Source: Polyangia bacterium
GTDB taxonomy: Bacteria > Myxococcota_A > Polyangia > Fen-1088
DNA: 64,000 bases
NCBI GenBank assembly: GCA_036268875.1
Contig: DATATI010000091.1
Span: forward strand, 201,513-265,512
Direction of reading: 5' to 3'
The notes under the pieces: generated by a model
What the model was told of the DNA's origin: nothing
Databases searched by the model: none
Seen by the model: the letters and a program-made list of their open reading frames with translations, nothing else
Made by a program: the position numbers and the translations under genes
Shown: in pieces, positions 35,369 to 38,049 of the stretch
Layout of the letters: each line of letters opens with the position of its first letter
Numbering within the stretch: the stretch's first letter is position 1

Positions 35369-36901
35369 TCAGTCGACCCGCGCGCTAAAGAACGCGGTCT
35401 GGATGACGTCGCCGCGTTTGAACTGCACGACGATTCGATAAAGGCCGGGTTTCGGGCAAGCGTACGGGAAAGCGATCTCGGGGGGCAGGGCGGCGGCGTG
35501 GTGGCCGGCGTGGCCCTTGTGGGCGGCGTGCGGATCGGCAGAGACGCCGCTGCCGTTGCCGCTCTCGATCAAGGCCAGCGTGGCCATCGAGACCGAACCG
35601 CTGGGATGAATGTGGGCGAAGACGGAACGATCGTCTTTGATGAACGCGGCGTGTCCGGCCATGCCCATGTACGGCGTGACGTCGGTGGCCGGTTTACCGT
35701 CGGCGCCGTCGACGCGAAAACGAAACCAGGTGGTGCGCCCGGCGCGCAACGGATCGGCGCTGTCGCCGCCCAGCCACACCACCTGCCCGCCGTCGGGCAT
35801 ACGAAAGGCCCGCGTGGTCGCCGCATCGGCGGCCAGCGCGCGCCCGGTGCCCAGGGCGTCGTCACCGATCGGCCCGCCGCCTTTCGCCGCCGGCAAGGTG
35901 ACGATCGTGGTGGCGGTCTCGGCCAGACCGGTCTGGTGGACGATGTCGGCGAACAGTTGATAGTCGCCGGGCGGCAGCGCCGGCAGCGCGCGCTGGAATT
36001 TTCCCGGCTGACCTTGATCGGGATGAAGATGCGCCACCACATCCATGGCCGGCACGCGCACGACGTAAAGGTGCATCAGGTGATCGTGGTCGGGGACCAG
36101 ATCGTCCAGGCGCCGCGACTTGGCCCAGCCGGGATCGGTCAGGGTCAGCGACAGCGTGATGACACCGTCCCCACCAACAGCGGTGCTGGCTTGCAGCGCC
36201 AGCGGTTTGTAAACGTTCTGACCGTAGCCGCTGGCTTCGTCGCCCCACCAGGTCGCGCCGCCCAGCACCAGCGCGGTCAGCACGGCCGCCGCCACGGTCT
36301 GCGCCACGCGGCTGCGCCGCCGTCGCTGTCCGTCGGCTTGCTGGCCTGGCTCCAGCGCGGCGTCGCGCACGCTGGCGCCGACGATGCTGATCATGCCGGC
36401 GACCAGAAATGCCAGCAGCGCGGCCAGCCCCAGTCCGAGGCCACGCTGCATGGTCTTGGTGCGCAGGGCCAGCGCCGGCACCGGCACCGCCAGGTCGCCG
36501 GCGCCGCGCGGGCCATCAACGTGCACGCGCACCTGCCAGGATCCGCTGGCCATGAACCACAACTTGGCGCTGAAACGGTGCGGATCGCCGACCTCGGCGT
36601 GGGCCACGTCGGCGGTCGGCGGCAGCACGGCGCCCGGTCCGCGCAGAGGTGTCGGCACCAGCGTCACCAGACCGAGTTGATCGTCGGGCGCTTGCACGTC
36701 GACCACGGCCACGCCCGGAATCACCTCGGGCGGACGGATGGTCACCAGCAGCGGATAGGGGCCGGCGTTTCCTTCGAAGAAGACGTCAGGACTGCCAAGG
36801 TGCGCGCTCGCCACGCCACCGTCGACCAGCAGCGCGGTGGCGATCAGGACCAGCGCGGCAGGCAACGCCGCCGGACGGGGCTTGAAAGAGCGGGCGCGCA
36901 T
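35369..36901 (-). CDS. Membrane-anchored His-rich protein with YtkA-like N-terminus and two HxHP sites
   Basis: 510 aa. Signal peptide, then a beta domain (SPDVFFEGNAGPYPLLVTIR) like YtkA-type copper-linked sandwiches, two TM helices (about 165-190 and 218-235), then a large extracytoplasmic region with two paired segments: HDHLMHLYVVR followed by AHLHPD, and GMAGHAAFIK followed by FAHIHPSG. A His-rich loop (HAAHKGHAGHH) follows before the FPYACPKPGLYRIVVQFKR end. The layout suggests metal (Cu) binding. ATG 36901 overlaps the stop of the upstream membrane gene by one base (TGATG), so the pair is coupled. Confidence 0.8.
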   Translation of the reverse strand: MRARSFKPRPAALPAALVLIATALLVDGGVASAHLGSPDVFFEGNAGPYPLLVTIRPPEVIPGVAVVDVQAPDDQLGLVTLVPTPLRGPGAVLPPTADVAHAEVGDPHRFSAKLWFMASGSWQVRVHVDGPRGAGDLAVPVPALALRTKTMQRGLGLGLAALLAFLVAGMISIVGASVRDAALEPGQQADGQRRRRSRVAQTVAAAVLTALVLGGATWWGDEASGYGQNVYKPLALQASTAVGGDGVITLSLTLTDPGWAKSRRLDDLVPDHDHLMHLYVVRVPAMDVVAHLHPDQGQPGKFQRALPALPPGDYQLFADIVHQTGLAETATTIVTLPAAKGGGPIGDDALGTGRALAADAATTRAFRMPDGGQVVWLGGDSADPLRAGRTTWFRFRVDGADGKPATDVTPYMGMAGHAAFIKDDRSVFAHIHPSGSVSMATLALIESGNGSGVSADPHAAHKGHAGHHAAALPPEIAFPYACPKPGLYRIVVQFKRGDVIQTAFFSARVD

Positions 36902-38049
36902 CAGCGGCGGATCCGGCGCATCCAATCTCCCCAGGCCAGGCCAACCCAGGCGCTGGCCATGCCGAGCGCGCCCACCCGCGCCGCGCCCGCCACGAACGCA
37001 GCCGCCGATACTTCGTACGGCAAAAACAGGCCGTGCGCGTAAGACGACGCGACAGGCGTGTTGAAGTCGAAGTACATGGCGCCGAAAAAATAATTGCGGG
37101 CCGCGGGCGACATCAAGAACGTGGCGAATGGCCACTGGGCGATGAAGAAGACCGTCGCGAACACGATGCCGCTGGCCACGGCCTTTTGCCCGCGGCTCCA
37201 GTCGGGCGTGCGCGACCACAGCAGATCCATCACCAGCGCCGGAACGATCAGCAGCAGGGGAAACTCTGGTGGGATGAACTGCGTGACCGGGAACAGCACC
37301 GGCCCCAGCTTGGGCTGGGCTGGGAAAAGCGGCAAGATCCACAGCAAGCCCAGCAAGAACGCCGAATAAAACAGCGCGGTCAGCGTGGCCGCCCAGCGTC
37401 GGCCGCTGGCGCGGCCGGCGGCGCAAAACACCAGCGGCACCAGCGCGGAGACGTAGGCGTAGAAGCTCGCCCGGTGCATGAAGATACGGATGGTCTTCTC
37501 CATGAACATCGTCAGCAAGGCCATGACGATCATTCCCTGCACGTACAAAAACAGCAGGGTCAGGCGTCGTCGCAATTCACCATCGGCGCGGTTGCGGGCG
37601 CCCAAAACAAAGATCGCCGCGCCCAGGTGAATGCACAGGATGCCGATGGCCAGCACCACGTGCGGCGGGCTCAAGATCTTGACGTCCAGTCCGTAGGCGT
37701 TGTGCCACCAGTCGTCGAACGGCGCCGACGCCAGCATGGTGATGCCGCCCCAGGCGGTGATGAACGCGCCCAGCGGCCCGCGAAATCCCAGCACCTGAAC
37801 GGCGTGCGCGCGCACCGGCGATGAACGCCGAAAGGTCGCCCCCAGGATCTGCGAGGCCGCCGCCACCGCGGCCAGCACTGCCGCCAGATAAATCGCCAGG
37901 TGCGGCGGCGACCAGAAGGTGTCGCGTCCAATCGAGCGATGCCAGGCGATGTCCCAGTGCACGCCGATTTGCACGGTGGTCGACGCGGCCAGGGCGCACC
38001 ACAGATACAAAGGAATGCCCGGGTTCATGGAGCGCCAAAAGCGTAGCAT
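36901..38049 (-). CDS. Polytopic membrane protein with duplicated WH...SPPH motif
   Basis: 382 aa, about ten hydrophobic helices, no family recognised. Two copies of a polar motif sit at helix ends: Asp33-x2-Trp36-His37-x3-Gly41-x-Asp43-x3-Ser-Pro-Pro-His50 and Asp112-x2-Trp115-His116-x3-Gly120-x-Asp122-x4-Ser-Pro-Pro-His130. His31 and other His/Met residues add to the potential ligand set. Conserved His pairs in helices suggest heme, Cu or quinone binding. It overlaps and precedes the His-rich HxHP gene, its probable partner. The gap to the next divergent gene is 198 bp. Confidence 0.7.
   Translation of the reverse strand: MLRFWRSMNPGIPLYLWCALAASTTVQIGVHWDIAWHRSIGRDTFWSPPHLAIYLAAVLAAVAAASQILGATFRRSSPVRAHAVQVLGFRGPLGAFITAWGGITMLASAPFDDWWHNAYGLDVKILSPPHVVLAIGILCIHLGAAIFVLGARNRADGELRRRLTLLFLYVQGMIVMALLTMFMEKTIRIFMHRASFYAYVSALVPLVFCAAGRASGRRWAATLTALFYSAFLLGLLWILPLFPAQPKLGPVLFPVTQFIPPEFPLLLIVPALVMDLLWSRTPDWSRGQKAVASGIVFATVFFIAQWPFATFLMSPAARNYFFGAMYFDFNTPVASSYAHGLFLPYEVSAAAFVAGAARVGALGMASAWVGLAWGDWMRRIRR

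Follow-up and report, generated by a model that had tools for sequence, protein, structure and literature searches.

A conserved gene pair encoding a probable PmoC/AmoC relative and its exported histidine-rich partner

The window, the whole 64-kb stretch of DNA that was analysed, contains on its minus strand two overlapping genes: the stop codon TGA of the first (36903–36901) and the start codon ATG of the second (36901–36899) have one base in common. Both reading frames and their TGATG junction had been described in an earlier note made from the sequence, and we confirm them as follows.

36901–38049, minus strand: polytopic membrane protein of 382 residues, with ten helices and the N-terminus inside (AF2 model with pLDDT 94.6, loop charges and conservation in 83 homologues)
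36899–36903, minus strand: TGATG junction, where the stop codon of the membrane gene and the start codon of the partner gene overlap (sequence)
35369–36901, minus strand: exported partner of 510 residues, with a signal peptide, an N-terminal β domain, two transmembrane helices and two C-terminal β domains (AF2 model with pLDDT 91.2)

In direct searches neither window protein matched any Pfam or NCBIfam model or PDB sequence at a significant level. Matches to DUF7315 and DUF4229 were sub-threshold, lay in transmembrane segments and were discarded. The source genome has a single copy of the membrane gene, and nothing in it matches the Pfam model for AmoC. The neighbouring genes in the window encode a D-Ala-D-Ala-ligase-like ATP-grasp protein, a trypsin-like protease, a PilZ protein and a radical SAM protein. 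Within the 64 kb the pair has neither a copper gene nor a transporter close to it, an ABC-transporter ATPase starting about 8 kb away, which bears out the earlier remark that no known transporter or ATPase is nearby. We found no published description of the two-gene family in a literature search that left out preprints and most subscription journals and is hence not proof that none exists.

The membrane protein carries two sets of potential metal ligands, which we compared with the copper sites of PmoC. The PmoC reference sequence matches PDB entry 7ev9_C end to end. In PmoC the CuC site is formed by D156, H160 and H173 and the CuD site by N227, H231 and H245 (PMC12576850). The two sites of the window protein are as follows.

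37900–37953, minus strand: CuC-like site D33-x3-H37-x12-H50 (DIAWHRSIGRDTFWSPPH), aligned without gaps to PmoC D156/H160/H173 and 99–100% conserved
37660–37716, minus strand: CuD-like site D112-x3-H116-x13-H130 (DDWWHNAYGLDVKILSPPH), aligned to PmoC N227/H231/H245 and 99–100% conserved, with Asp in place of Asn

Both sites are colinear with those of PmoC and the ligand spacing is identical. Of the bacterial CuD pattern N-x3-H-x13-H the spacing and both histidines are kept, and the asparagine is an aspartate. Across 83 membrane proteins the residues conserved at 99–100% are D33, W36, H37, D43, H50, D112, W115, H116, H130, H192 and D275. This ligand pattern was missed in the earlier note, which saw the protein as a channel or enzyme.

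The protein consists of a PmoC-related core (residues ~14–158) and a six-helix C-terminal half. Net positive charge is found in the C-terminus and in the loops that follow helices 2, 4, 6 and 8, and the other loops are near neutral; both metal sites are therefore predicted to lie on the outer side, where the domains of the partner are found. Conservation mapped on the AF2 model groups the conserved potential metal ligands at the outer end and reveals no conserved line of Cys, His or Met residues through the membrane, M105 being the one mid-membrane candidate.

The lead for the comparison with PmoC was the ligand spacing, which was spotted by reading the sequence, and the subsequent tests were independent of that lead. 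When a core HMM was run against 8,874 reading frames, the first five distinct matches from outside the family were PmoCs, ahead of any decoy, the best having an E value of 1.6e-5. The profile–profile score against PmoC was 42.1 (P = 6e-5), the highest of 296 column shuffles reaching 26.5, and all eight PmoCs scored above the 30 multi-pass membrane controls. AmoC was also the Pfam family matched by most members in a scan of 24,736 models (13 of 64, best E 0.0035), but no member reached the Pfam AmoC cut-off, the homologue P0003 scoring 13.6 bits against the required 26.7. The AmoC model matches the Mycolicibacterium homologue with an E value of 0.044, and this homologue, used as a query on Acidobacteriota genomes, retrieved a contig with a canonical PmoC at 8.6e-4. 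In a single BLASTP comparison the window protein matched that PmoC at 6e-6 with all six ligands aligned. A canonical PmoC gene (L119:1123-1905) lies on a 3.3-kb contig that is attributed to the Acidobacteriota genome G433. Although the individual E values for the relation are modest, the four-helix core of the membrane protein is in our view very probably homologous to PmoC/AmoC, a homology that relates its first four helices to the C-terminal part of those proteins. A whole-fold search (Foldseek against the PDB and viral models) gave no significant match, with a best E value of 0.44; AmoC (9leg_C) was found at rank 43 (E 3.0, 154 columns), with an r.m.s. difference of 5.8 that is far below those of the higher-ranked matches.

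The likeness to PmoC/AmoC/HmoC (PF04896) includes not only the CuC pattern D-x3-H-x12-H but the W..R-D-T....P residues that surround it, together with the CuD spacings of x3 and x13, the colinear order and the position of both sites at helix ends. In contrast to PmoC, the window protein starts right before the CuC helix, the N-terminal PmoC helices being missing; it also has six additional helices, an Asp where CuD of PmoC has Asn, and a score below the Pfam cut-off. Archaeal-type AmoC, too, is described as truncated at the N-terminus (PMC9038741). PmoA was not detected by HMMER (rank 131 or worse), nor is there a PmoA near the 81 two-gene loci. The C-terminal half did give a colinear profile match to PmoA (30.6, with a shuffle maximum of 25.4), yet single PmoAs did not score above the membrane controls; for this reason, and because HMMER finds nothing, a PmoA origin is not claimed. 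Homology of the partner to PmoB was rejected at the sequence level (HMMER). The three-gene CAB operon is absent, there being two genes and no conserved third. Since PmoA and PmoB are both undetectable, the system is, as judged by these searches, related to the CuMMO family but outside it.

The features of the partner are as follows.

36803–36901, minus strand: signal peptide with a predicted cut before His34 (ASA|H)
36473–36802, minus strand: N-terminal β domain with His34 as its first residue (invariant, 73 of 73), CrdA/CopC-like by a weak profile match
36221–36445, minus strand: two transmembrane helices (residues 153–180 and 191–227) with a basic loop between them (AF2 model, loop charges)
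35894–36199, minus strand: C-terminal domain 1, with invariant D271, H272, H277 and H291-x-H293-P and a nearly invariant H322
35375–35809, minus strand: C-terminal domain 2, with M414, H417 and H430-x-H432-P conserved at 99–100%
35498–35530, minus strand: HAAHKGHAGHH loop (residues 458–468), not conserved (pLDDT 52–57)

The residue at position −1 of the predicted cut is Ala in 71 of 73 partners and almost all of them have a small or aliphatic residue at −3, and the mature partner is therefore predicted to start with histidine. An N-terminal histidine of the mature chain is a likeness to histidine-brace proteins. Across the 73 partners His34, D271, H272, H277, H291, H293, M414, H417, H430 and H432 are 99–100% conserved. 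Much of what the earlier note had picked out in this protein stands: the long helices at 153–180 and 191–227 are present in the high-confidence AF2 model, and HLHPD (residues 291–295) and HIHPSG (430–435) are present with their histidines conserved at 99–100%. Its expectation that the histidines would be conserved holds for most of them, but not for the His-rich loop, which exists in the window protein and is replaced by gaps or other residues in most of the alignment. The description of the N-terminus as YtkA-like needs correction: that domain alone has no Pfam YtkA match, and among whole partners four of 64 match YtkA (PF13115; best E 7e-5), the window partner not being one of them.

The nearest compact solved fold match to one domain of the partner is Helicobacter pylori CrdA (9ll2), with a TM-score by target of 0.68 (Foldseek), and the partner profile matches the same chain over the N-terminal domain with an hmmsearch E value of 0.11. 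The likeness to CrdA is that of the fold of one partner domain; CrdA has neither transmembrane helices nor the C-terminal module. It contains no histidine, and a Met-rich site has been proposed for it (PMC9182242). With PmoB (PF04744) the partner has in common that it is exported, that its mature N-terminus is predicted to be histidine and that a β domain is followed by two transmembrane helices and a further β domain. It differs from PmoB in having no detected sequence similarity, a CrdA/YtkA-like domain rather than a detected cupredoxin and two HxHP C-terminal domains; HxH is absent from its N-terminal domain, so that the CuB triad is not matched.

A scan for relatives in one genome per species, with a three-sequence alignment as the query, yielded 569 related places, and the pair occurs in hundreds of genomes of soil bacteria. 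The top 80 of the 569 are full-length or nearly so, have 47–57% identity and come almost all from Acidobacteriota, including Granulicella isolates. In 72 of these 80 loci the partner gene lies directly downstream in the same orientation, either overlapping the membrane gene or no more than ~0.2 kb from it, and some of the eight loci without it are contig ends. That the two genes would be conserved together, as the earlier note had anticipated, is thus confirmed, and this adjacency and the 99–100% conservation of the histidines in 73 partners argue that the pairing is not due to chance. In Myxococcota, where the note proposed to look for the pair, the system is sparse: in even genome samples it is found in three of 379 Myxococcota genomes and 16 of 297 Acidobacteriota genomes, Acidobacteriota being its main home. 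Phylogenetically, the Myxococcota copies branch at two or more points among those of Acidobacteriota, which is consistent with transfer, within the limits that rooting and long branches set on reading the tree. No neighbour other than the pair itself is conserved, the commonest neighbour cluster being found in 13 loci, and no catabolic or redox gene is conserved beside the pair.

Both ligand sets are retained in plasmid-borne homologues from Mycolicibacterium, Streptomyces and Leifsonia. In these Actinobacterial proteins a β domain starting AHDPGQG and a last helix are fused to the membrane part in a single gene. Four of the six Actinobacterial loci viewed have Cu-type ATPases, multicopper oxidases, HMA proteins or other copper- or heavy-metal-resistance genes close by; the M. 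aubagnense locus has only a BlaI/MecI/CopY-type regulator as metal-related context and the Rubrobacter locus has no copper- or heavy-metal-resistance gene close by. There is no copper ATPase or multicopper oxidase around the 81 two-gene loci (1.16 Mb). The co-occurrence with copper genes suggested in the earlier note is accordingly seen at most of the single-gene Actinobacterial loci viewed and not at the two-gene loci. The plasmid copy of R. marinus (L005:7895-9022) is apparently split by frame changes, as a pseudogene or through sequencing error. Genes for a cysteine-synthase-like PLP enzyme and an MFS transporter recur near the Actinobacterial homologues (L004, L007 and L008), and in S. mirabilis they adjoin a tRNA-dependent cyclodipeptide synthase, which would allow for a chelator pathway.

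A homologue of the C-terminal module of the partner (E 4.7e-20) is encoded on a plasmid of Mycobacterium dioxanotrophicus, four genes upstream of the HMO CuMMO operon. The group found there (L096:256-4084) comprises this HxHP-module homologue, a small exported HVHVHG protein and a multi-pass membrane protein, and may possibly supply copper to that enzyme. The membrane protein was rejected as a homologue of the family, as both motifs are absent and the family profile does not match it.

The most consistent interpretation of the data, in our view, is that the pair forms an extracytoplasmic-facing copper membrane complex in which the partner loads a PmoC-type site that carries out Cu/O2 chemistry; we give this statement as a whole a probability of roughly 0.45. 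Copper is the likely metal, to judge from the PmoC-type site, the CrdA/YtkA-like domains and the Actinobacterial copper islands. To this extent the outline in the earlier note, a membrane channel or enzyme with an extracytoplasmic metal-binding subunit, was a fair one, given a conserved pair, mostly invariant histidines and copper as the likely metal. The first four helices keep both sets of metal ligands at helix ends, with the adjoining loops predicted to be outside. The partner, anchored by its two helices, would use the N-terminal histidine together with both HxHP domains to capture copper and load it into the membrane site, in the role that PmoB has in pMMO. The loaded site might then carry out copper chemistry that depends on O2, its substrate being either a small or membrane-soluble molecule or Cu(I) itself, and the extra six-helix half might provide a pocket for substrate or quinol. 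We lean towards Cu/O2 chemistry because the ligands of the CuMMO site are retained together with the nearby W, R, D, T and P residues, because no conserved path of soft ligands leads through the membrane and because copper-resistance genes do not accompany the two-gene form. Against this reading stand the modest E values and the non-significant fold match, the undetectable PmoA and PmoB, the lack of a conserved catabolic or redox neighbour and a divergent Myxococcota member in which three of the six ligands are replaced.

Copper acquisition or homeostasis ranks close behind as a serious, if somewhat less favoured, alternative. Here the partner would catch copper in the manner of CopC or the anglerases, by its N-terminal histidine, and pass it to the PmoC-like protein, which would move, store or deliver it. 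The Actinobacterial fusions with their AHDPGQG domain speak for copper handling and against Cu/O2 chemistry, being mostly in copper-resistance islands (four of six viewed loci near copper genes); the CrdA/YtkA-like domains of the partner also favour copper handling. The architecture also parallels that of Bacillus subtilis YcnJ (CopC–CopD–YtkA), which needs the copper ligands of both CopC and CopD and is a proposed copper importer (PMC13344008). With YcnJ and CopC/CopD the pair has in common an N-terminal-His domain (for copper, by likeness), a multi-pass membrane part and a YtkA-like domain, but its membrane part is related to PmoC and not to CopD, and in Acidobacteriota and Myxococcota it is encoded by two genes. 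A similar parallel exists with the N-terminal-His domains of anglerases on permeases, which are proposed metal capturers (PMC12537917): in anglerase–HupE/UreJ_2 proteins such an extracytoplasmic domain likewise serves a membrane protein, whereas our pair consists of separate polypeptides and the partner has a large C-terminal HxHP module. Neither a CopD nor a HupE/UreJ_2 permease domain is among the Pfam matches of the window membrane protein or those listed for the 64 members, and this counts against acquisition, as do the lack of a conserved soft-ligand path across the membrane, the absence of a copper ATPase or multicopper oxidase at all 81 two-gene loci and the nature of the residues kept, which are the PmoC site ligands and the common W/R/D/T/P around CuC.

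That the pair serves another cuproenzyme, such as a haem–copper oxidase, as assembly factor or copper sensor seems to us improbable. YtkA/CtaK-type domains do serve CuA assembly in B. subtilis (PMC13344008) and the family is widespread in soil bacteria, but no gene cluster accompanies the pair in more than 13 loci and such a role leaves the PmoC-type ligands unexplained. We consider it more improbable still that the resemblance to PmoC is convergent, D-x3-H helix ends in any membrane protein perhaps looking alike. The low full-length similarity and the non-significant fold match would fit convergence; the column shuffles, the membrane-protein controls, the decoy ranking in the core-profile search, the retrieval of PmoC by a homologue and the colinearity of both sites with identical spacing all argue against it.

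To our knowledge, no relatives of PmoC/AmoC outside the monooxygenases have been described. We tentatively suggest, as something short of an even chance, that the PmoC copper-site superfamily may have in this family a second branch, deeply diverged and outside the known CuMMOs: an oxidizing copper enzyme common in soil Acidobacteriota, with two genes (one in Actinobacteria), that would mark how membrane proteins for copper handling were the source, or else the offspring, of the CuMMO site. The family also offers an outgroup for the origin of that site. Which copper site oxidizes methane has long been disputed (PMC12576850), and a natural family with the CuC/CuD pattern and no detectable PmoA or PmoB offers a stripped-down system in which to study the PmoC site, for example in Granulicella. 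If the proteins are oxygenases, an unrecognized oxidation reaction is widespread in soils; if they are copper transporters, copper-handling proteins and the active-site subunit of the methane enzyme would have a common ancestry.

Several members depart from the common form. One genome (G380) has three copies of the membrane gene (L107, L109 and L111), two of them near-identical, and a further match in G483 is not interpretable. The Acidobacteriota genome G446 contains a divergent pair (L117:784-3218, L121:4164-8037) whose partner keeps the N-terminal histidine and has altered HxHP motifs (HINP and EIYP). The overlapping upstream gene seems to encode a MauG-like di-heme cytochrome c peroxidase, a possible redox partner of this pair. 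In a divergent Myxococcota member (P0009; G134, L003:1465-2559) the positions of H37, H116 and H130 are occupied by E, Q and Q, representing either a natural ligand variant or a changed metal; its partner keeps HLHP despite these changes.
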